DNA from: Halobellus litoreus
Lineage (GTDB): Archaea; Halobacteriota; Halobacteria; Halobacteriales; Haloferacaceae
NCBI RefSeq assembly: GCF_024464595.1
Contig: NZ_JANHAW010000001.1
Coordinates: 248,001-312,000 of the forward strand
Direction: 5' to 3'
Length of the DNA: 64,000 nt
Shown here: piece by piece, positions 3,331-61,489 of the stretch
How positions within the stretch are numbered: position 1 is the stretch's first letter
Layout: the number at the start of each line of letters is the position of its first letter
Program-made: the position numbers and the translations under genes
The notes under the pieces: generated by a model
Seen by the model: the letters and a program-made list of their open reading frames with translations, nothing else
Told to the model about the DNA's origin: nothing
Databases searched by the model: none

Positions 3331-6042
<2,712 letters not shown>

Positions 6043-6199
6043 CCCTTGTCAGTTTACTCACACCACCGACATATATATGATAGCGTTGGTGGACTGACCT
6101 CTCCGGGGCTCAGATTCGTTCGGCGGATCGTCTCCCGGGGGGGATCGAACCAGTGAATCGGCCCGCGTGTCGACGCGATTTCCGCCGCCGTGAGGTGGC

Positions 6200-6207
6200 T
6201 TTTTATC
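6200..6207 (+). promoter_or_regulatory. TATA element upstream of the UspA-family gene
   Basis: TTTTTATC lies 23 bases before the ATG at 6230, the distance expected for a leaderless or near-leaderless haloarchaeal transcript. This is a sequence-only prediction. Confidence 0.45.
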
Positions 6208-6229
6208 GTCTGCACACGCGGGTCGAAGT

Positions 6230-6640
6230 ATGACGACGTACGTACTCGCGACGAACCACGTCGACACGAGCGCGCGGCTCTGTGATTACCTCGTCGATCG
6301 GATCTCGTCGAGCGACGAGATCCACGCCGTCAACTCGCACCGCGGGGGCGACGAGACGGACAGCCAGGACGTCCGCGACGGCGAAGAGGCGCTGACGGTC
6401 GTCTCCTCGCGACTCGGCGGGCGGGCCACGGTCGAGACCCACCAGTTCGTCCGCGGCAACGCCCCCTACGAGGACGTCCTCGAACAGGCCGAGGACGCCG
6501 ACGCCGACGAGATCGTGATAGGGATCCGCAAGCGAAACCCGACGGCGAAGGTGGTCTTCGGCAGCACCGCACAGCGGATTCTCCTCCACTCGAACCGGCC
6601 GATCGCGGTCGTGCCGCTGGTCGAAGTCGACCGCGAGTGA
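6230..6640 (+). CDS. UspA-family universal stress protein
   Basis: The 136-residue single-domain protein begins MTTYVLATNHVD. It ends with the Usp nucleotide-binding stretch, here GIRKRNPTAKVVFGSTAQRI followed by NRPIAVVPL, which matches the Usp pattern G-x2-G-x9-G-S/T in altered form (the second Gly is Arg). Acidic insertions are typical of haloarchaeal Usp proteins. It is a monocistronic gene divergent from the P-type ATPase. Ligand and stress signal cannot be read from the sequence. Confidence 0.8.
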   Translation: MTTYVLATNHVDTSARLCDYLVDRISSSDEIHAVNSHRGGDETDSQDVRDGEEALTVVSSRLGGRATVETHQFVRGNAPYEDVLEQAEDADADEIVIGIRKRNPTAKVVFGSTAQRILLHSNRPIAVVPLVEVDRE

Positions 6641-8092: not shown

Positions 8093-9097
8093 TCACTCCC
8101 CCACGACGGCGTCGAGAAACGCCAGCCCGTGACCGATCGCCTGCTCGAAGCCGGTCCCCTCGTAGAGGTCGAAGTGACCCGCGGGGAGGCTGACGAGCGT
8201 CGCGTCCGCCAGCTCGTCGCTGAGGTCTTCGACCGTCTCGATCGGAACCACGTCGTCGCGGGTGCCGCCGACGAAGAGGGTAGGACAGGCGAGCCGATCC
8301 CGGTCCTCGTCGCCGACGTGCCGCGCCAGCGCGAGCAACGACCGGGCCGGGATCTGACCCTCCCAGTCGTCGCCGGCGAGATCACGGTAGCCGCGGTGAG
8401 CGCTCGGCGTCGACACGAGCGAGAGGCCCCGCCCGCCGTCGCTGCCGTCGTCGGCGACGGCGATCGAGTGGGGCCCGAAAAGCGGAGACTGGAGGCGGTC
8501 GCGGACCCCGGCGATGACGCCGCGGGCGAGGAATCCGAGGCCCCGTTCGCGGAGGAAGGCCCGGCCGGAGAGGACCGGCGTCTGCGAGACGACAGCCGCG
8601 ATCCGCGGGTCGTCGGCGGCGACGTCTAGGACCGTGCCGCCCGCGAGGTCGATTCCCCAGAGAACCACTCGGTCGGTGGCGACGTCGCTGCGGCCTCGGA
8701 GCCCCGCGAGCGCCGCCTCCCAGTCGGCGCGCTGTCGCGGCGGCGAGATCAGGTCCCGCGGTTCGCCGTCGCTGTCGCCCGTGTGTCGCTCGTCGAAGTG
8801 GAAGACCGCGTACCCGGCCGACGCGAGGCGCTCGGCGTACCCGTCCAGGCCGACGCCCGAGGCCCCGATCGGTCCGCCGGCGAGGACGATCAGCGCAGGG
8901 TCCGACGGTCTGTCGGGTCGGTAGAGGCGACCTACGCAGCGCTCGCCGCCGCTGCGGAACGTCATCCGCACCGTGGCAAAGTCGTATCGGGAAGGTCGGC
9001 GTCGACGAGCGGTGTCCCGGCTTGGGTCGTCGCCGCTCTTTCGGCGCGCGTCGTCGCCCGTATCGCTCTCTCCCGACTCCGGACGGCGGACCGTCAC
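8093..9097 (-). CDS. alpha/beta hydrolase with Asp at the nucleophile elbow
   Basis: With GTG at 9097 the product has 334 residues. The start overlaps the stop of the upstream gene by four bases, which decides the choice; an internal ATG (residue 45) would remove an Arg/Asp-rich lead and leave the core fold. The oxyanion strand reads LIVLAGGPIGASG (69-81). The nucleophile elbow is WGIDLAGG, with Asp150 where esterases have Ser. The acid region is GGTRDDVVPI and the histidine lies in PAGHFDLYEG. Asp nucleophiles occur in dehalogenases and epoxide hydrolases. The substrate is unknown and the protein could be inactive. Confidence 0.7.
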   Translation of the reverse strand: MTVRRPESGESDTGDDARRKSGDDPSRDTARRRRPSRYDFATVRMTFRSGGERCVGRLYRPDRPSDPALIVLAGGPIGASGVGLDGYAERLASAGYAVFHFDERHTGDSDGEPRDLISPPRQRADWEAALAGLRGRSDVATDRVVLWGIDLAGGTVLDVAADDPRIAAVVSQTPVLSGRAFLRERGLGFLARGVIAGVRDRLQSPLFGPHSIAVADDGSDGGRGLSLVSTPSAHRGYRDLAGDDWEGQIPARSLLALARHVGDEDRDRLACPTLFVGGTRDDVVPIETVEDLSDELADATLVSLPAGHFDLYEGTGFEQAIGHGLAFLDAVVGE

Positions 9098-11555: not shown

Positions 11556-14522
11556 ATGCCGCCCAGCGGGCGCGAACTGCTCCGACGAGTCGCCGCCGAC
11601 GCAGTAGCAGCCGACGTCGACGATGGGGGCGCTGACACCGACGATGGGACTGCCGCCGACGATGGCGGGGCTGACGCCGACGAGGGGGCCGCCGACGCGG
11701 CACCAGTCGACGTCGCTGAGGGGGTCGCCGACAGCGGCGCTTCCGTCGCCACCGGTCGCGACGAGGACGCACCGGCGGACGCGACCCGCGCCTCCGACGG
11801 CGACCCGTTCGAGTTCGATCCCGACGCCGTCGACATCGCCGACGAGGACGTCCTCGACCGCCTCGAACCGGCCGTCCGCGAGTGGTGGGTCGAACAGTTC
11901 GGCCGCTACGTCGACCAGAACGGCGGCTTCTTTACGCCGCCGCAGCGCGAGGCGATCCCGCTCGTCGACGAGGGCGAGAACGCGCTCGTCTGTGCGCCGA
12001 CGGGGTCCGGCAAGACGCTATCCTCTTTCACCGCGATCCTGAACGACCTGTTTCGGCGCAGCAGAGAGCTCGAGGACGGCCTCGACAACTCGGTGTACTG
12101 TCTGTACATCTCCCCGCTGAAGTCGCTCGCGAACGACATCCACCGCAACCTCACCGTGCCGCTGTCGGGGATCAGCGAGCGGATGGAAGCGCGGGGCGAG
12201 GCGGTCGAGGTCCGCCAGGCCATCCGCCACGGCGACACCGACTCCGCCGATCGACAGCGGATGCTCGAGGAGACGCCGCACGTGCTCAACACCACGCCGG
12301 AGACGCTCGCGATCCTGCTCAACGCGCCGAAGTTCCGAGAGAAGCTTCGCTCCGTGGAGTACGTCGTCGTCGACGAGATCCACAGCCTCGCGGCCAACAA
12401 GCGCGGCACGCACCTGTCGGTCTCCCTGGAACGCCTCGAAGCCCTCGCCGAGTCGTCGCCGACGCGGATCGGCTGTTCGGCGACAGTCGAACCGCTCTCG
12501 GAGATGGCGGAGTTCCTCGTCGGCCGCGACGACGACGGCGACCCGCGGGAACACGAAATCGTCGACACGCGGTTCGTCCGCGATTTCGACCTCCAGCTGG
12601 AGTGTCCGACCGACGACCTGATCCACACGCCTCGTTCGGCGATTCAGTCGGGGTTCTACGAGCGACTGCACGAACTCGTCGAGTCTCACCGGAACACGCT
12701 CGTGTTCACGAACACCCGCTCGGGCGCGGAACGCGTCCTCGAAAACCTCCGCGAGCGCTTCGACGACTACGACGAGGGAAACTCGGGCTGTCACCACGGC
12801 AGCCTCTCGAAAGAGCGGCGGCAGCTCGTCGAGGAGGGCCTGAAGGACGGCTCTCTGGACGTCGTGACGACCTCGACGAGCCTGGAACTCGGAATCGATA
12901 TGCCGCATCTGGACCTCGTCGTCCAAGTCGGCTCGCCGAAATCGGTCGCGTCGCTGCTCCAGCGCGTCGGCCGCGCGGGCCACAGCCTCGGACAGACGGT
13001 CGAGGGGCGGGTGATCGCACTCGACCGCGACGAACTCGTCGAGTGCGCGGTGATGGTCGAGAAGGCCGAATCGGGGTTCGTCGACCGCGTGTTCGTCCCG
13101 GAGAACGCCCAGGACGTCGCCGCCCAGCACGTCTACGGAATGGCGATCAACGACGTCAGGCGGGAGGCCGACGTCCTGGGAACGCTCCGCCGCGCGTACC
13201 CCTACCGGAACTACGCCGACGACGACTGGGAGCGACTGCTCCGGTATCTCACCGCCGACTACGACGGTCTCGAATCGAAGAACGTCTACGCGAAGGTCTG
13301 GCGCGACACCAACGACCCGCCCGACGGCGAGCACCACTACGAGTCCTTCGACGTCGGGGAACCGCTGCTCGGCAAGCGGGGGCGTCTCGCCCGCGTCATC
13401 TACATGACGAACGTGGGAACCATCCCCGACTCGTTCACCTGTGAGGTGGTCACCCGGCAGGGCGAGGAGTGGGTCGGCACGCTCGACGAGGACTACCTCG
13501 ACACCTTAGAGAAGGGAGACGTGTTCGTCCTCGGCGGCGATCGGTTCGCCTACCGCTACCGACGTGGCTCGAAGGTGTACGTGGACCGGACGAGCAAGCA
13601 GGCGACCGTTCCCTCGTGGTTCTCAGAGCGGTTGCCGCTGTCGTACGACCTCGGTCGCGAGGTCGCCGCGTTCCAGGCCGATCTGCTCGAACGCCTCGAC
13701 GCCGACGGCCCCCCCGCGGTCCGCGAGTGGCTCCGGGGCTTCCCGATCGACGAGAACGCGGTCCGCGCTGTCACGCGCCTCTTCGACGAGCAGCGTCGCT
13801 ACGCCGGCGCGGACAGCGTCGCGACCGACGAGCGAATCGTCGTCGAGGAGACGCTCGATCGGGAGACGTACCGCCGGCACTTCTACGTCCACTCGACGTA
13901 CGGCCGGCGGTTCAACGACGGCCTCTCCCGCCTGGTCGCCCTCCGCTGTGCCAACCGCTCGAACGCCAACGTCCAGATCGCGGTCGCCGACAACGGCTTT
14001 TCCCTCTCGATGCCGCTGAACCGGAAGGTCGACGTCAGCGGCGTCCTTCGCGATCTCGACCCCGACGCGGTCCGCTCGGACCTCCGCAGCGCGCTCCAGG
14101 GCACCGACCTCCGCAAGCGCTACTTCCGGATCAACGCGACGCGCGCGCTGATGATCTTGAAGCGCTACAAGGGCTACGAGAAGTCCGCGGCCGAACAGCA
14201 GGTGTCCGCTGAGATGCTGCTCTCCTTCGCCGAGGACCTCGAGGAGTTCGCGGTGATGGAGGAGACCTACCGCGAGATCGTCGAGGACAAACTGAACCTG
14301 GCGGCCGTCGAAGCGGTACTGCGGGAGGTCCGAGCGGGCGACGTCGAGATCGTCACGAAACGGGTCGACTCACCGACGCCGCGGGCGTTCGGTCTTGCGA
14401 CGCTGCTCGCCAGCGACGTCGTTCTCGCGGAGGACGAGAGCGCCGTGTTACAGGAGTTCCACGAGCGGGTGCTGGAGTCGATCGGGGACGAGGCCGAGGA
14501 TGGCCGGGATTTCGGCACGTAA
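11556..14522 (+). CDS. lhr: Lhr-family superfamily 2 ATP-dependent helicase
   Basis: The 988-residue protein has an acidic extension (1-95) and a Q-like FTPPQREAIP (126-135). Motif I is APTGSGKT (147-154), motif Ia YISPLKSLAND (184-194), motif II VDEIHSL (272-278) and motif III GCSATVEPL. The second RecA domain has TNTRSGAE and QRVGRAGHSLGQ, and a large C-terminal winged-helix/DUF4145-like region follows. Archaeal Lhr enzymes are 3'-5' DNA/RNA-DNA helicases thought to act in replication-coupled repair. It converges on the Dna2-like gene, with the stop codons only two bases apart. The acidic extension contains short imperfect repeats. Confidence 0.9.
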   Translation: MPPSGRELLRRVAADAVAADVDDGGADTDDGTAADDGGADADEGAADAAPVDVAEGVADSGASVATGRDEDAPADATRASDGDPFEFDPDAVDIADEDVLDRLEPAVREWWVEQFGRYVDQNGGFFTPPQREAIPLVDEGENALVCAPTGSGKTLSSFTAILNDLFRRSRELEDGLDNSVYCLYISPLKSLANDIHRNLTVPLSGISERMEARGEAVEVRQAIRHGDTDSADRQRMLEETPHVLNTTPETLAILLNAPKFREKLRSVEYVVVDEIHSLAANKRGTHLSVSLERLEALAESSPTRIGCSATVEPLSEMAEFLVGRDDDGDPREHEIVDTRFVRDFDLQLECPTDDLIHTPRSAIQSGFYERLHELVESHRNTLVFTNTRSGAERVLENLRERFDDYDEGNSGCHHGSLSKERRQLVEEGLKDGSLDVVTTSTSLELGIDMPHLDLVVQVGSPKSVASLLQRVGRAGHSLGQTVEGRVIALDRDELVECAVMVEKAESGFVDRVFVPENAQDVAAQHVYGMAINDVRREADVLGTLRRAYPYRNYADDDWERLLRYLTADYDGLESKNVYAKVWRDTNDPPDGEHHYESFDVGEPLLGKRGRLARVIYMTNVGTIPDSFTCEVVTRQGEEWVGTLDEDYLDTLEKGDVFVLGGDRFAYRYRRGSKVYVDRTSKQATVPSWFSERLPLSYDLGREVAAFQADLLERLDADGPPAVREWLRGFPIDENAVRAVTRLFDEQRRYAGADSVATDERIVVEETLDRETYRRHFYVHSTYGRRFNDGLSRLVALRCANRSNANVQIAVADNGFSLSMPLNRKVDVSGVLRDLDPDAVRSDLRSALQGTDLRKRYFRINATRALMILKRYKGYEKSAAEQQVSAEMLLSFAEDLEEFAVMEETYREIVEDKLNLAAVEAVLREVRAGDVEIVTKRVDSPTPRAFGLATLLASDVVLAEDESAVLQEFHERVLESIGDEAEDGRDFGT
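11614..11700 (+). repeat. imperfect tandem repeat coding an Asp-Gly-Ala acidic tract
   Basis: Units of about 18-21 bases starting GACGATGGG or a close variant recur four times and encode DDGGADT, DDGTAA, DDGGADA and DEGAADA at the N-terminus of the Lhr helicase. Such tracts vary in copy number between strains and lie outside the helicase fold. Confidence 0.6.
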
Positions 14523-55006: not shown

Positions 55007-55167
55007 ACCGCCAGCTACCACTCCCGCGATCCGGATAGGTTTTCGGGAGGGTGCCGGCGACCAGGGACGGTCTCCGAGAGCCCGTCGGCGACCCGGGTGT
55101 CGCCTGCGGGTGTCGACGTCGATCCACAGGCGACAGTATAATACCGGGTCGGGGTCGCTGTAGCCAT

Positions 55168-56553
55168 ATGGAGCGATTCGACGTAGCCATCGTCGGCGGC
55201 GGCCCCGCGGGGTCGTCCGCCGGACACGCCGCCGCGTCGGCCGGCGCGTCGGCGGTCGTCCTCGAAAAGGGCGTCCCGCGGGCTGATCGGCCGGATCGAC
55301 TGGGCCCGGATTCGACGGACGCCGCGGGAATCCTCGACTACTGGGTGGACATTATGGGGATCCACCCCGACGAGATGCCCGAGGACGTCGTGCTCGGCGA
55401 GTTGGACAGGGCGGAGTTCATCGGCCCGACGGAGTCGCTAACGATGCGCTCGACGGGCATCGAATCGTCGTACGACGAGTTCGGCTTCTGTATGCAGCGG
55501 GCTCGCTTCGACGACTTCCTGCGCGACCGGGCCGAAGAGGCGGGGGCGGCCTACCGCGTCGGCACGTCGGTCCGCGGCGTCGAGACGGACCTGGCGGCGA
55601 CGGACGGACCGCGGCATCGACTCGAACTCGCGGACGGCGAAACCGTCGGTACCGACTTCCTGATCCTGGCGGACGGTCCGCAACGGCAGGTCACGTCCGG
55701 CGTCCTCGACGACTACCTCCCCTTCGACGTCACCGAACGCCTCTCGACGCGGGAGACGAACCACATCGCCTACCAGGAACACCGTCGCCTGCCCGAGGAG
55801 GTCTTCGAGGAGGTCGCCGGCGCGATCAAGTTCTGGTGGGGACATATGCCCGGTCACACCGCCTATCCGTGGATCTTCCCGAACGACGACAACGTGGCCC
55901 GGATCGGGCTGACGATGCCCATCGGGATGGACATCGACGACGTCGAGAACCGGGACGCATACCCGCTTCTCCGCCCCGACGACGAACGGATCCCGCAGGG
56001 GAAGGAGTACATTCGACGGCTGCTGGAGATGGAGTACGGCGACGAGTACGACATCGAGGCGGACTTCCCGCTGGTCGAGGAGCGCGGGAAGTCCGGCGGG
56101 ACCGAGACGTACGCCATCTCGTCGACGCGGCCGATCGATTCCCCCACCGCCGCGGGCATCGCCGTCGTGGGCGGCGCGATGGGCGCGACGTCGGCGTTCC
56201 ACGAGGGCGGCGACCACACGGCCGTTCGGACGGGCGCGATCGCGGGCGAACTGGCCGCGTCCGGTGACCTCTCGCCGTACAACGACCGCTGGAAGGACGC
56301 CATCGGCGACGAGGTGCTCAGAAACGTCGCGATGGCGGACGTCGTCCACGACTACGACCCCGACGACTGGGACTGGGCGTTCTCGACCGCCCGGAAACTG
56401 ATGGAGAACAGCGACGGGTACGGCCTGTTCGACACGAGCAACGTCCGGGCGGGCTTCGGTGCCGCCCGCCTCGTCACCAGTTACAAGCGCACGAAGTTCT
56501 CGTTCCGAAACGGCAAGTACGTACAATTCACCGAATCCGAGTACACGCTGTAG
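55168..56553 (+). CDS. geranylgeranyl reductase-family flavoprotein
   Basis: The 461-residue protein has the FAD dinucleotide motif VAIVGGGPAGSSAGHAAA (6-23), the substrate-cavity segment GIESSYDEFGFCMQRARFDD, GHTAYPWIFPNDDNVARIGL and AVVGGAMGATSAFHEGG for the FAD phosphate. Relatives saturate archaeol side chains or isoprenoid quinones. Length is about 60 residues over the smallest archaeal members. It may have another isoprenoid substrate; this cannot be settled from sequence. It has a short divergent promoter region with the sulfatase. Confidence 0.82.
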   Translation: MERFDVAIVGGGPAGSSAGHAAASAGASAVVLEKGVPRADRPDRLGPDSTDAAGILDYWVDIMGIHPDEMPEDVVLGELDRAEFIGPTESLTMRSTGIESSYDEFGFCMQRARFDDFLRDRAEEAGAAYRVGTSVRGVETDLAATDGPRHRLELADGETVGTDFLILADGPQRQVTSGVLDDYLPFDVTERLSTRETNHIAYQEHRRLPEEVFEEVAGAIKFWWGHMPGHTAYPWIFPNDDNVARIGLTMPIGMDIDDVENRDAYPLLRPDDERIPQGKEYIRRLLEMEYGDEYDIEADFPLVEERGKSGGTETYAISSTRPIDSPTAAGIAVVGGAMGATSAFHEGGDHTAVRTGAIAGELAASGDLSPYNDRWKDAIGDEVLRNVAMADVVHDYDPDDWDWAFSTARKLMENSDGYGLFDTSNVRAGFGAARLVTSYKRTKFSFRNGKYVQFTESEYTL

Positions 56554-56765
56554 TCGCTCTCGGTGGCGAGTCGGAACGGCCTTGGGCGTCGGTCTCGTTA
56601 GTCCGACTGCGCACCCTTAGTCCCCGCCCGAGTTCTCCCGTCACGGGAGCGATGAATCGGCGGCGAACCCGGGTGTGCGACATCCGCGGACTGTCCGCGC
56701 CCGAAAGACGGACCGCCCGACACGAGGGTTTCCCGGCCGACGCGGCACGCAGCCAGGGATGAGGC

Positions 56766-56786
56766 CGGCCGTTAGTGTTCCGGGCG
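56766..56786 (+). repeat. half copy of the 49-bp hairpin repeat (A)
   Basis: CCGTTAGTGTTCCGGGCGTA at 56769-56788 recurs at 57013-57032, with 22 of 23 bases identical including the next three. The upstream palindromic half of the repeat is missing here. Confidence 0.7.
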
Positions 56787-56981
56787 TACATCGACCTTTT
56801 ACGCTGCGCGAGCGACTGCGTCGCTCGCTCGGTAAAAGCTCGACCAAAAGCACTCCTCGCTCCAGCGCGCCTTTCGGCGCTTAGTCGCTCGTCGGCCTCG
56901 CGCTCACGTCCGTTCGCGCGAGTGAATCGGCGACCTACCGGGTCCTTCGGACCACTCGGTCGCCGAACGCTCGTTGATTCT

Positions 56982-57030
56982 ACTTCCACCAAGCCTACTA
57001 GTAGATGTTCGCCCGTTAGTGTTCCGGGCG
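56982..57030 (+). repeat. 49-bp hairpin repeat, copy B
   Basis: The copy has the palindrome CTACTAGTAG, three variable bases, and the hairpin CGCCCG/CGGGCG around a TAGTGTT loop. It aligns without gaps to copies at 59680-59728 and 61388-61436. Confidence 0.85.
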
Positions 57031-57353
57031 TATATTTCGAATATACTATTAGAATTATCTGCAAATAATACAGATTACTTCAGCCAGAGTCTATCGTCGA
57101 ATGAGATTTACCCGTAGTAGCCGCTCTTTCTCGCCGTATCGTGGAAACTGCCGATGACGACCAGCTTGGAATGAAGTCTGCCGGGAGTACTCTATGCCAG
57201 TAGACCTATCGCCAGGATATCCACATTGCGGTACTTCAGAAGGCCGACCAACTGTCGCTTACTCCGAACTCTGCCCACTTGCTGTAGTCTTATTACGAAA
57301 TCACGATTGAATCATAACACAACAATCATTTCTGCGCGGTATCCATTCTCAGT

Positions 57354-58574
57354 ATGGCTGTTCGATTCTGGCGTTCTTCTGATCTACCACCGGCGAGCGT
57401 GCTGAAGTATTATTTCTACAAATCGACCAAAGCCGTCGAGTTTTATCGCCCAATTATGTATCTCTTTTTTCTCGCACAGGGACTCAATTTCACGCAAATC
57501 GCCGTCCTCGAAGCGATATACAATCTGACGACGCTGCTTGGTGAGATTCCGACGGGCTACATCGGTGACCGTGTGGGCCGGCGCAACAGCCTCCTGACCG
57601 GAACGGTACTCATTTCGCTCACACTGCTTGGCATCGGACTTTCCAGTTCGTTCTGGGCGCTCGCAGGGCTGTACGTCTGCTGGTCGATGGGCTACAACTT
57701 CCGGTCGGGAAGCGAGGATGCCTGGTTGTACGATACGCTCACTGACGACCTCTCCGAAGACCAGTTTGCGCACGTCCGGGGACGCGGCGAATCCGTCGCC
57801 CTGGCAATCGGCGCTGGGGCAGCAATAATCGGGGGCTATCTTGGCAGCATTGACCTGTCGTATCCGTGGTTCGTCGCTTCGGGAGTGACAGCAATCGGCG
57901 TGTTCGTTCTCCTGACGATAGACGAGCCCGCGACCTACGAACGAACCGACACCACGGCGTTGAGCTTTCGTCGCACACTCTCGATTATTCGGCGAACGAT
58001 CTCAGAGCGCAACATACGGGCGTTCGTGCTGTATTACTACGTCCTCTACGCAGCAGTGACATACCTCGTTTTCGTGTTTCTTCAACCGATCTTCGAGACA
58101 ATCGTCATCGACTTCGGTGTCTCTCAGTCACAGGTGAGATCACTGCTCGGGTGGTTCTACGCGGCCTACAGTCTCTTTGGCGCCGGTCTAAGCTACTATA
58201 CCGGAGCGATTCGTGACCGTCTGGGACTTCGGACGTGGTTTCTGTGGCTGCCCTTCGTCGTCGGCGGTGCATTGGTGGGAATGTATTTTGTTCCGGTGCT
58301 CGCGCTTCCGACGTTCCTGCTGATCCGCGGGCTCTCCGACGTGACACGGTCGTTTGCTGGCCAGTATATCAACGACCACATCAAGACGATGGGACGTGCG
58401 ACCGTACTCAGTGCCATGGCGATGGTTAGCGGACTCGCTGTCGTTCCGTTCCAGCTTGGGAGTGGTGTCATCTCCGACGTCGTCTCCCCATTGTTCGCGC
58501 TTGCTGTGGCCGGTGTCGTCCTCATTGTCAGCTCGACCGGCATCTTACTCTGGGAGGCACCCATCGAGCGATAA
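57354..58574 (+). CDS. MFS transporter
   Basis: The 406-residue protein has 12 predicted membrane helices. The loop between helices 2 and 3 reads GYIGDRVGRRNSLLTG, the MFS G-x3-D-R-x-G-R-R motif. It starts MAVRFWRSSDLPPASVLKYY. GC content is lower than average, and it lies in a segment bounded by repeats. The next gene is a NikR-like regulator, which suggests that the substrate could be a metal or metal chelate, but no direct evidence for the substrate is visible. Confidence 0.85.
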   Translation: MAVRFWRSSDLPPASVLKYYFYKSTKAVEFYRPIMYLFFLAQGLNFTQIAVLEAIYNLTTLLGEIPTGYIGDRVGRRNSLLTGTVLISLTLLGIGLSSSFWALAGLYVCWSMGYNFRSGSEDAWLYDTLTDDLSEDQFAHVRGRGESVALAIGAGAAIIGGYLGSIDLSYPWFVASGVTAIGVFVLLTIDEPATYERTDTTALSFRRTLSIIRRTISERNIRAFVLYYYVLYAAVTYLVFVFLQPIFETIVIDFGVSQSQVRSLLGWFYAAYSLFGAGLSYYTGAIRDRLGLRTWFLWLPFVVGGALVGMYFVPVLALPTFLLIRGLSDVTRSFAGQYINDHIKTMGRATVLSAMAMVSGLAVVPFQLGSGVISDVVSPLFALAVAGVVLIVSSTGILLWEAPIER

Positions 58575-58644
58575 CTACCATTGCTGTCAACTCTCAGAGA
58601 AACCATACTTGGAACTCTTGTACGAGCACCCCGAACAGCACTCA

Positions 58645-59034
58645 ATGCGAACGAGTTTCAATATCCCGGATGCGGTCGTCGAAGAGTTCGATCAGGTCTG
58701 GCAAGATGAGGGACTAGAGAATAGATCACGAGCGGTTCGTGAGGCGATGCAAGAGTATATCGAGTCGCATTCCCGACTCGAAGACCTCAGCGAGGACGTT
58801 ATCGCCCTCGTCGCTTTCGACTACCGCCATCACGAGGTAATCGAGGAACTCCACAGTGTCCAACACGACTATCAGGACGTGATTCTCAACACGAGTCACA
58901 CGCACCAAGGAGAGTGGTGTCTTGAGTCCTTGTTCTGTCAAGGAACCGGTGAACGCGTTCGGGAATTAACCTACCGCCTTCGTGACTTCGACGGCGTAAA
59001 CCGAGTCAAAATTATGGTGATTCGAGATAACTGA
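58645..59034 (+). CDS. NikR-like metal-responsive ribbon-helix-helix regulator
   Basis: ATG at 58645 gives 129 residues. The ribbon-helix-helix part is MRTSFNIPDAVVEEFDQVWQ to about residue 45. The C-terminal ACT-like domain has the metal site His74 (VQHDYQ), His85 and His87 (SHTHQ) and Cys92, matching NikR ligands His76, His87, His89 and Cys95 of E. coli, with one residue fewer before the cysteine. NikR represses nickel uptake when metal-loaded. It likely controls the preceding MFS gene 70 bases upstream. Confidence 0.82.
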   Translation: MRTSFNIPDAVVEEFDQVWQDEGLENRSRAVREAMQEYIESHSRLEDLSEDVIALVAFDYRHHEVIEELHSVQHDYQDVILNTSHTHQGEWCLESLFCQGTGERVRELTYRLRDFDGVNRVKIMVIRDN

Positions 59035-59063
59035 GCGCGGGATATGCCCGTGAATTCGCTCGT

Positions 59064-59447
59064 TCAGTCTGCTTCCGTTGCCGTGTTTCCGACCGATTCG
59101 GACGGCGTGTTCAAATAGAGATAGATCAACACGAGAATCAAGACGACTTGAACTGCCTTGTCAACGTAGTCGATCATTCCGTATTCTGACTTGGCCGCGA
59201 TCCAGAGGGGGAATTGCACGGCAGTATACGGACTCCCAACGAGGTAGAGCAGGCGACGCCGGTAGCTAAGCAAAAACAGCACAAGAGCACCGGCGTAGCC
59301 AACGCCTGCAAGTGCCACTGGTGCCCGCCCTTCGACGATACCAGCATATATATGGAGGGCGCCAGTGACGACGACTAACGCGATTGCAATCCACTGGATT
59401 TGAGTGATCGACCCGAGCTGGCTTGCCGATTTGTTTTGTGCGTTCAT
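59064..59447 (-). CDS. four-helix haloarchaeal membrane protein
   Basis: The 127-residue protein has four hydrophobic helices (about 20-38, 46-63, 68-85, 100-118) joined by short loops, with SYRRRLLYLVGSPYTAVQFP in the middle. Similar small membrane proteins of unknown function are widespread in haloarchaea. ATG at 59447 is preferred over GTG one codon upstream. It converges on the NikR-like gene. Role unknown. Confidence 0.7.
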   Translation of the reverse strand: MNAQNKSASQLGSITQIQWIAIALVVVTGALHIYAGIVEGRAPVALAGVGYAGALVLFLLSYRRRLLYLVGSPYTAVQFPLWIAAKSEYGMIDYVDKAVQVVLILVLIYLYLNTPSESVGNTATEAD

Positions 59448-59470
59448 CACAATACTACTTCGTTGGCGCT

Positions 59471-59480
59471 TTTAGATAAG
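59471..59480 (-). promoter_or_regulatory. TATA element of the four-helix membrane protein gene
   Basis: CTTATCTAAA on the coding strand lies 24 bases before ATG 59447. Confidence 0.45.
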
Positions 59481-59885
59481 GACTGTTATTATCCAACTCC
59501 GGACTCCATCATATGTCGCTTGATAACTCAATTCGCACATGTGTGGTGAGCGGCTGGTTCAGCAGTTTCGACGTGAAACAAACAGAGCTGTAATGCTGAC
59601 TATACGCTCTATATTCAGCACGCCTTTCGTGTCATCTGCTGGTGATGTTCAGCAGAGCCCCTCGCATTATGTCGTTTTCACTTTCGCCAGGCCTACTAGT
59701 AGAAACTCGCCCGGTAGTGTTCCGGGCGCACACCTCGAAATTCCCCGAAGCGATGGCTATCTGACCTCTCAGGTGTCACGAAGTCGCTGGAATAGAACCC
59801 AGATGTACTCACGCATCGCTAAGCACAGCAATTACGACACTGCTGCTCCGCGACGAAGAAGTGTGCCAGCCGGTCGACTAGTACA
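59481..59885. other. non-coding region with two repeat types
   Basis: It contains the dispersed-repeat copy at about 59593-59623, a 6-bp hairpin at 59636-59655 (CTGCTG/CAGCAG) and the 49-bp repeat copy C at 59680-59728. A 168-codon open frame over this stretch crosses both repeats and lacks protein features, so it is not annotated. Confidence 0.55.
59680..59728 (+). repeat. 49-bp hairpin repeat, copy C
   Basis: The palindrome CTACTAGTAG and the perfect 7-bp hairpin CGCCCGG-TAGTGTT-CCGGGCG are present. Similarity to copy B continues for about ten bases past the hairpin (through TCGAA). Confidence 0.85.
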
Positions 59886-61019
59886 CTACGGATACAGTTG
59901 TGTTCGTAGACCAAGGAGTGCCGCTACGAGAACCGATAGTACCCCGACGCCGACACCGAATCCGGGAGTGCTGCCGGAACTGGACGCCTGTCGAAGGACG
60001 AGGGTGACCTCCGATCCACTCCGCGAGCGGTTCTCGACGGTGTAGGTGTCGCTGATTTCGAGCGTGGGACGACCCGCAATCTCGATCTGGGTTGTGTTTC
60101 CGACTTTGAGCCGTCCGTCCGCGGTGGTCTCACCGCGGCGGGTCACCCCATCGCTCCCGACGTTGACCGCGATATCGCTGACCGGGGCGCCGGAGGTGTT
60201 GACCACGGTAACGGTTATGGGATTCGCATTAGGAACGGTAACGCGTCCGATAGAGCGGTTTTCTGGCACGGTGACGTTCTCGAGACCCGCTGCGTCTGGG
60301 ACGCCGTCGCGGGGACTGCCAGTCTGGACGACGCCAAGCACGTAGGTGTTGCTCGGGAGGTCGGGTTCCTCTCGCCAAGACGTGAACGCGAACCCGCCGG
60401 TCGCGTTCAGCGGCTCCCGCGTGTAGTTCCCGTCGGGACCGACGAGCACCGCCGACGCGTTCGTTACAGGAGTGCCGTCGTCGCGGACAAGACGGCCAAT
60501 GACGGCCGGCCGGAGAACAGTCAGGTTGAGCCTATACGTCTTCGAAAGGTGTGTGCTCCCTTCTTGGTCGTACCTGAAGTCCATCTCGAGGGGGTGAGAA
60601 GTCTCCGGGGCGGCAGACGCTGACGCGTTGACGGTGAAAGTCAGATTCCGTGTCTCCTCAGGGGCCAACGAATCGAGACGGGCCGTGTCGTTGCTGGCGC
60701 TGAACGGATCATCGATGAACAGTTTGGCAGCCACGTTCCGGGCCGGCTCGTTGCCGTGGTTCGTCACGCTAATCGTGACATCTCGCTCGGCTCCTTGCGT
60801 GATCGCCCCTCCCTCGATAATCGAGACGGAGAAACGGTCGCGATTCGATTGCTGTACCGTATCAGACGCATTCGTCAGTGCCGGGATCGTTCCGCCTCCC
60901 TCAATAGCGATGCCGCTCTCGGCGGCTGCTCCGGTCGCCCCACTACCTGCTCCGATTCCGGTGAGCGAACTCAGAACGACGAGCAAAGCGACCCCGAGTG
61001 CGCGACGCCGCGTCGTCAT
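59886..61019 (-). CDS. secreted surface protein with PGF-CTERM sorting signal
   Basis: ATG at 61019 gives 377 residues. There is an N-terminal signal (RRALGVALLVVLSSLTGIGA) and a CARDB-like domain about 65-165 (VTISVTNHGNEPARNVAAKL). Two carboxypeptidase regulatory-like beta domains follow (IGRLVRDDGTPVTNASAVLV; VVNTSGAPVSDIAVNVGS). A C-terminal PGFGVGVGVLSVLVAALLG is the PGF-CTERM signal cut by archaeosortase A for lipid attachment. Many Asn-x-Ser/Thr sites suggest N-glycosylation. The basic residues after the last helix are few. It probably forms part of the cell envelope. Confidence 0.8.
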   Translation of the reverse strand: MTTRRRALGVALLVVLSSLTGIGAGSGATGAAAESGIAIEGGGTIPALTNASDTVQQSNRDRFSVSIIEGGAITQGAERDVTISVTNHGNEPARNVAAKLFIDDPFSASNDTARLDSLAPEETRNLTFTVNASASAAPETSHPLEMDFRYDQEGSTHLSKTYRLNLTVLRPAVIGRLVRDDGTPVTNASAVLVGPDGNYTREPLNATGGFAFTSWREEPDLPSNTYVLGVVQTGSPRDGVPDAAGLENVTVPENRSIGRVTVPNANPITVTVVNTSGAPVSDIAVNVGSDGVTRRGETTADGRLKVGNTTQIEIAGRPTLEISDTYTVENRSRSGSEVTLVLRQASSSGSTPGFGVGVGVLSVLVAALLGLRTQLYP

Positions 61020-61489
61020 TATCTCCGAACCCTCTCGCCTTTCACCACGTGATGACGGACAGAGGATAGAATCCATTGCTCGGTGGTCAAGAGTAAACCT
61101 GTTATTAGTTGCGAAAGATGTTATCTCACCCATTTTCAGGGGCCTGTTTGATGCGGTTGATTGGCTGCTCGTGAAGCGAACCTTCGAGTAATCGCACAGG
61201 GTTGCAGCAGGCGAGAGAATTCTCTCCGAAAGGAGAGATGTCGACTCGGCATAGACTTCTGCGAAATGCCGGGGCCGTTCCTCTCGGCCGACATTTCCAA
61301 CCGAACCTACCACTCGACTCGACGGATCGACCGCCTCAGACGCAGATCAGCTTAACGGCTACTTCACCGCCACTGATACCGGATTTTAGTCCCACCGAGC
61401 CTACTAGTAGAGCGTCGCTCGGTAGTGTTCCGGGCGACGCAGTACTTCGTACACAGGGTCGTGTCTACTGGCACCGAGAGGTGAGTGCG
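61020..61489. other. non-coding region with 49-bp repeat copy D
   Basis: The AT-richer part near 61080-61130 probably holds the promoter of the leftward surface protein gene. Copy D lies at 61388-61436. No gene is supported. Confidence 0.5.
61388..61436 (+). repeat. 49-bp hairpin repeat, copy D
   Basis: This copy aligns without gaps to copies B and C. The hairpin is CGCTCGG-TAGTGTT-CCGGGCG, where the C-to-T change keeps pairing as a G-T wobble. The three variable bases are GCG. Confidence 0.85.

Follow-up and report, generated by a model that had tools for sequence, protein, structure and literature searches.

A putative integron-like cassette array at the 3' end of a box H/ACA guide RNA gene in Halobellus litoreus and other haloarchaea

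In the Xer/dif system, the pdif modules of Acinetobacter plasmids are small, often toxin-antitoxin, units that are moved by a recombinase encoded elsewhere, and their sites are 28-bp XerC/XerD sites in alternating orientation. Tyrosine integrases of the pNOB8/SNJ2 type act at tRNA 3' ends, on sites with a 7-bp centre and inverted arms that form part of an RNA stem, and the incoming element restores the RNA end (PMC8371274). The box H/ACA guide RNA of Haloferax volcanii consists of two hairpins (Hvo1/Hvo2), for Psi2621 and Psi1956/1958 of 23S rRNA (PMC2584109, PMC4652768). Here we analyse a window of 64,000 nucleotides from Halobellus litoreus (contig NZ_JANHAW010000001.1, positions 248,001 to 312,000; window coordinates are used below), in which repeats of one orientation divide a row of unrelated genes directly downstream of an H/ACA RNA gene.

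The locus is, in all likelihood, an integron-like array of non-autonomous cassettes inserted site-specifically at the 3' end of the guide RNA gene. It has the cassettes, the single site orientation and the primary site of an integron array, and it resembles integrons in its small head-to-tail cassettes at one chromosomal platform, in the apparent entry of new cassettes at the first position, in its toxin-antitoxin cassettes and cassettes without open reading frames (ORF-less), and in the exchange of whole cassettes between distant hosts. In contrast to integrons, the haloarchaeal arrays lack an intI, both next to the platform and, above the cut-off, anywhere in the genome; their sites fit no attC consensus and have no supported fold, gene orientation is mixed, and the platform is an RNA gene needing its tail regenerated. 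With pdif modules they share small, often toxin-antitoxin, units and a presumed recombinase encoded elsewhere, but their sites all point one way and have a long left arm, and a role for XerA enters only as a hypothesis. The likeness to pNOB8/SNJ2-type elements lies in the centre, the arms and the restored RNA end; the target, however, is an H/ACA guide RNA, a type not named in the passages of PMC8371274 consulted, and the cassettes lack an integrase of their own and form multi-unit arrays. The platform RNA has the two-hairpin layout and both 23S targets of the described haloarchaeal H/ACA sRNA (PMC2584109, PMC4652768), for which a role as integration platform was not found described. The open literature, of which our coverage was incomplete so that an earlier description is possible, yielded neither a cassette array in haloarchaea nor a case of integration at an H/ACA gene.

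An earlier note on this DNA had described three 49-bp copies (at 56982, 59680 and 61388) that align without gaps in the same orientation, and the alignment bears this out. Their similarity reaches past 49 bp, giving a unit of ~60 bp, and a repeat scan returned a 69-nt family at 56973, 59671 and 61379 with identities of 78% and 68%. CTACTAGTAGA, a variable triplet and TAGTGTTCCGGGCG are present in all three full copies, and the segments between copies measure 244, 2698 and 1708 bp as had been claimed. The half copy at 56766 is real as well and comprises only the right half of the unit (positions 34-60 of R1, our sequence-only model of the site). Against the 3.86-Mb genome, R1 gave E values of 1.4e-17, 1.9e-17 and 9.3e-15 for the full copies, which exclude a chance origin, and 7e-4 for the half copy; these four were the sole matches at E <= 1. 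The repeats are real recombination sites. While the shared motif and variable slot of the earlier description stood, its hairpin around TAGTGTT did not stand as a conserved RNA hairpin: the pairs that the opposite arm would form in the full copies lack covariation (0.109 observed vs 0.110 shuffled), so this hairpin is no separate RNA structure, and we rejected the site hairpin as RNA. The features of the array are as follows (R2 is a covariance model of the platform RNA).

55051..56553, + strand: FAD-dependent oxidoreductase gene (cluster c0), outside the mobile unit; Pfam FAD_binding_3, E 1.3e-8
56608..56790, + strand: box H/ACA guide RNA gene; attI-like integration platform formed by the 3' end; R2, two ACA hairpins, 23S complementarity
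56608..56682, + strand: H/ACA hairpin 1, 3' guide AACCC; lower stem 56608-56615 / 56672-56678, box GACA 56679-56682
56714..56790, + strand: H/ACA hairpin 2; 5' stem strand 56714-56720, 3' stem strand CCGGGCG 56780-56786, box UACA 56787-56790
56724-56729 and 56773-56776, + strand: hairpin 2 guides, 5' guide GAGGGU and 3' guide UAGU respectively
56766..56792, + strand: attI-like hybrid half-site, left part chromosome (RNA body), right part first cassette; R1 positions 34-60
56773..57016, + strand: cassette 1, ORF-less, 244 bp, a recurrent ~245-bp gene-less cassette
56978..57037, + strand: full cassette site 1, crossover region TAGTGT 57017-57022; R1 64.8 bits, E 1.9e-17
57017..59714, + strand: cassette 2, 2698 bp, bounded by the TAGTGT of successive sites
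57354..58574, + strand: MFS transporter gene (cassette 2 cargo); PF07690, E 2.8e-21
58645..59034, + strand: NikR-like ribbon-helix-helix regulator gene (cassette 2 cargo); PF08753, E 1.3e-19
59064..59450, - strand: gene of a small membrane protein, DUF7475 (cassette 2 cargo); PF24287, E 1.6e-8
59676..59735, + strand: full cassette site 2, TAGTGT 59715-59720; R1 65.2 bits, E 1.4e-17
59715..61422, + strand: cassette 3, 1708 bp, bounded by the TAGTGT of successive sites
59886..61313, - strand: gene of a CARDB-domain surface protein that ends in a PGF-CTERM-like tail (cassette 3 cargo); PF07705, E 8.5e-11
61384..61438, + strand: last full site, TAGTGT 61423-61428; R1 56.2 bits, E 9.3e-15

The right arm of the last full site is the chromosomal end of the RNA gene, displaced. 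Pfam confirmed the MFS, NikR-like and small membrane protein group named earlier; the gene labelled PGF-CTERM encodes a CARDB surface protein, and its tail scores 23.4 bits with TIGR04126, just below the curated cut-off of 24.5. The true start of this protein may lie near 61019. The c0 gene family also stands upstream of the guide RNA in loci of Natronomonas and Halapricum and in further loci of Halobellus, and is a conserved upstream gene in many families.

In every fetched array whose upstream end was covered, the first site is a half-site without the left half of the unit, and a strongly conserved RNA sequence lies to its left in all arrays where the half-site was identified. Aligned, this flank is an RNA with two hairpin domains, followed by the boxes GACA (hairpin 1) and UACA (hairpin 2), and 9 of its 45 predicted pairs are changed on both sides. 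Compensatory stem variants reach into the half-site: RNAs with CGCCCGC continue into the half-site GCGGGCG, and one genome with CACCCGG has CCGGGTG. R2 matched G000:C1:304604-304793 (window 56604-56793) with E 5.3e-48 and detected the RNA in 108 of the 117 Halobacteriales genomes searched, almost always as a single copy, whether or not an array was present. No Rfam entry matched it at gathering or relaxed thresholds. RNase P RNA, considered as an identity, sits elsewhere in the genome.

Both hairpins have pockets complementary to 23S rRNA at known haloarchaeal targets. For the 3' guide of hairpin 1 the rank-1 position is GGGUU-UA-GAC (GGGUUUA), the place of the known H. volcanii Psi2621 target (PMC2584109). 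GAGGGU and UAGU of hairpin 2 can pair on both sides of the UG in ACUAUGACCCUC, helix 69 of the 23S rRNA of the same genome (ACUA-UG-ACCCUC). This match ranked only 25 by length in a blind scan, so the placement of hairpin 2 rests on its agreement with the known target. From its sequence, predicted fold and guide complementarity we securely assign the platform RNA to the known box H/ACA pseudouridylation guide RNA. The suggestion of a dispersed structured RNA was therefore right for the half copy, which is the end of a real H/ACA RNA, and wrong for the full copies as RNA genes. The stretch between the hairpins varies from near nothing to ~150 nt (e.g. L117 10928-11268 vs window 56604-56793), and extra hairpins occur within it in several genera.

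In full copies, the right half (TAGTGTTCCGGGCGTACA) corresponds to the RNA's 3' guide, the 3' strand of its last stem and the ACA box, and the left half, CACTTCCACCGAGCCTACTAGTAGANNNTCGCCCGG, is cassette-specific. Directly after the site, many cassettes of unrelated cargo share a leader close to TACATTTCGAGTATGCTATTAGAATTATTTGTAAATAATA (window 57017-57070; L065, L115, L117, L128 and others), and 19 of the 30 motif matches in 1.37 Mb occupy this position. The leader may act as a promoter, or as an arm site for the recombinase.

Empty and filled loci allowed insertion to be placed on the sequence. In the Halorubrum locus L169, which is empty, gene c9 stands right behind the RNA; L173, L174 and L175 have this gene behind the last site, with at least one cassette in between, and chromosomal sequence resumes exactly at the repeat. 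L174 has the cassette's TACATTT in the first site and the chromosome's ACATTC in the last, L175 has TAGTGTT in the first and TAGTGTC in the last, and the left parts of the Halorubrum sites diverge immediately before TAGTGT. The crossover lies within TAGTGT, since these polymorphisms and the left-part divergence bracket it. The site thus mapped has a 6-7 bp centre between inverted arms, and the RNA end is regenerated. This core layout matches that of tyrosine-recombinase sites (canonical attB) of tRNA genes (PMC8371274). Another platform without a full site is L116.

In a set of 59 cassettes compared, some are shared whole between families. A cassette of L117, from the genus of Halapricum hydrolyticum, is 97.4% identical over 760 bp to one of L118 (Halobellus), and one of L113 (Natronomonas) is 95% identical over 1089 bp to one of L119 (Halobellus); comparable pairs of the flanking c0 gene have identities of 69% and 71%, with Halapricum L128 standing in for L117 in the first. 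At the level of aligned DNA these identities show that whole cassettes have been exchanged between families. Homologous recombination between repeats and flanks, without a dedicated site-specific enzyme, could in principle spread arrays in this way, and the repeats within an array are similar enough to recombine. The insertion into an empty site, however, shares only ~18 bp with the cassette end, and exact ends are common to cassettes with unrelated flanks in different families, which makes this explanation very improbable. The idea of recombination sites around unrelated cargo, put forward from the repeats of the window, is upheld by the arrays, the empty and filled loci, the crossover mapping and the exchange of cassettes between families.

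The unit occurs far beyond the locus in which it was noticed. A search with the pattern CCTACTAGTAGANNNTCG matched dozens of haloarchaeal contigs (consensus ATTTCACTTCCACCGAGCCTACTAGTAGANNNTCGCCCGGTAGTGTTCCGGGCGTACATTTC), and R1 at E <= 1e-3 found the site in 82 of 293 Halobacteriales genomes; by hand count ~66 of the 293 hold full sites, once 16 of the 82, with a best match weaker than 1e-5, are set aside. In a phylum-wide sample, every R1 positive fell in Halobacteriales. Copies nearly always form one cluster on one strand per genome, in arrays of 1-8 and usually at a single locus, with a site-to-site spacing of 155 bp to ~10 kb (median 897 bp) in the fetched loci. Such clustered same-strand copies are a cassette array and not a dispersed repeat. 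By hand tally, 48 of the 54 sites from 22 genomes share the strand of the guide RNA and are at most 13 kb downstream of it. The consensus had zero BLAST matches in plasmid and phage collections, and the pattern matches in IMG/VR, with only 12-17 bits, were dismissed as chance.

Cargo was surveyed on 90 cassette proteins. The commonest families are DUF5615 (PIN-like), Fic, DUF3368 (PIN) and DUF433; the cargo is rich in toxin-antitoxin genes, and the DUF3368 protein is the candidate defence family PDC-S70 in PADLOC. Gene orientation within cassettes is mixed. The ORF-less ~245-bp cassette, which is cassette 1 in the window and has many inverted repeats, recurs across genera, often in first position (L110, L111, L115, L117, L118, L119, L125, L128). 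One of the 90 proteins is a TnpB, encoded at L113 11341-12597 within a PemK-like/HTH toxin-antitoxin cassette that it interrupts as a passenger.

This gene bears on the proposal that the repeats are ends of IS200/IS605-IS1341 insertion sequences, or of miniature inverted-repeat transposable elements derived from them, with guide-RNA-like right ends. A palindromic motif, a structured right half and a TnpB gene in an array would fit such elements. Yet insertion uses one conserved chromosomal RNA-gene end as its target and not a motif of 4-5 nt, the H/ACA RNA tail makes up the right half, the TnpB is a passenger, and the cassette matches listed include no Y1 transposase family. We consider transposon ends very improbable, and this part of the earlier interpretation is not supported.

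In the mechanism that we propose for the integron-like array, each cassette carries one ~60-bp attC-like site, and crossover falls in the TAGTGT(T) of 6-7 bp that separates the arms. A new cassette would enter at the first position and bring a fresh RNA tail, while the old tail would shift to the far end of the array. Circular cassettes may be the intermediates, with a tyrosine recombinase supplied in trans. Selection for a working guide RNA would keep the site arms to the stem variant of the host. For the two variable arm bases, the half-site and full sites belonging to one array agree in 56 of 66 cases, where shuffling predicts 26.3; the shuffle takes no account of genome kinship, which lessens the weight of this agreement.

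Several further points weigh against the proposed array. Neither a circular cassette nor a recombination event has been observed, and the data are sequences alone. No tyrosine recombinase is encoded in any array examined, and it is from site anatomy only that we infer the recombinase type. No copies were found in the plasmid, phage or viral collections searched, and no vehicle for transfer between families is seen. A small number of sites fall outside the RNA locus (G080:C1:277729 and 285112, G115:C2:236204, G031:C2:708128). The first two, at L112 5730 and 13113, are full sites with a DUF5615/DUF433-type pair. These off-platform full sites (L112, G115, G031) would be secondary insertions or relics of rearrangement.

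As had been remarked for the window, no recombinase gene is visible beside the array, and the same is true of the other arrays examined. An integrase occurs near the array at two loci only (L127, L171), where the two are of different families and lie 3-6 kb outside it. A tyrosine recombinase acting in trans presumably performs the reaction. One possible candidate is a XerA-like protein of ~340 aa, nearest to archaeal XerA, which scores ~111-119 bits with NF040815 (cut-off 220). It is the sole integrase family common to all five genomes with the fullest integrase retrieval, and was found in 255 of 255 good genomes; since it is present in all of them, its distribution cannot link it to the arrays, which also counts against the proposal. 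Tentatively, the arrays might be a haloarchaea-wide capture system independent of integrons, in which a universal XerA-like recombinase would use the H/ACA end as attI, the rebuilding of the guide RNA would check each captured cassette, and the RNA promoter may drive cassette 1; we regard this fuller picture as possible but on the unlikely side.

Alternatively, the recombinase could be supplied by an incoming virus, plasmid or integrative element with the same H/ACA attB, the cassettes being its tandem non-autonomous satellites and the host XerA uninvolved. Archaeal integrative elements often target RNA genes and tandem integration is known (PMC8371274), and every genome holds several other tyrosine recombinases. 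Phages, plasmids and viral contigs, on the other hand, contained no autonomous element with the site, and only the XerA-like family is common to the five genomes. We give this alternative a serious chance, somewhat short of even.

A true integron, or a cluster of attC sites lacking integron-integrases (CALIN), with divergent attC and IntI in trans, would explain the array layout, the attI-like first site and the ORF-less and toxin-antitoxin cassettes, and an imperfect hairpin (CACTTCC..CGAG..CTCG..GGTAGTG) is possible and feasible by energy. This attC-like fold has no covariation, however (0.168 vs 0.164 shuffled), the consensus lacks GTTRRRY/RYYYAAC, IntI (TIGR02249) exceeded its curated cut-off in none of 20 array-bearing genomes, and Halobacteria go unmentioned in the archaeal integron survey. 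This explanation is largely refuted and retains only the slimmest probability; by membership, the array is not an integron.

If the cassettes are inserted as we propose, haloarchaea, which exchange genes freely, would have a dedicated platform for cassette capture at a single predictable address in every genome, and a guide RNA for rRNA modification can act as an integration platform. The working RNA would be supplied in part by mobile DNA, linking the sequence of a housekeeping RNA with the pool of cassettes. Judging by the toxin-antitoxin and candidate-defence genes among the cargo, the arrays may be stores of variable genes, like bacterial chromosomal integrons. For experiments, the recombination site is now named and pairs of empty and filled strains are available.

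Matches to CCTACTAGTAGANNNTCG were also obtained in Streptomyces, Saccharothrix and Lentzea. These actinobacterial copies (L011, L014, L016, L017, L018, L022, L023, L035, L041) resemble ends of insertion sequence elements, and we set them aside as transposon-like and unrelated. The 19-kb plasmid contig C7 (L001) has 30-bp direct repeats, GGCGTTCCAMAYTCAGAAACTACTAGTAGA, at 8618-8647 and 13915-13944, which enclose 5.3 kb, and also encodes a tyrosine recombinase (5353-6468, minus strand). Only CTACTAGTAGA is common to these repeats and the site family, and they were rejected as members of it; they are possibly another cassette-like system.

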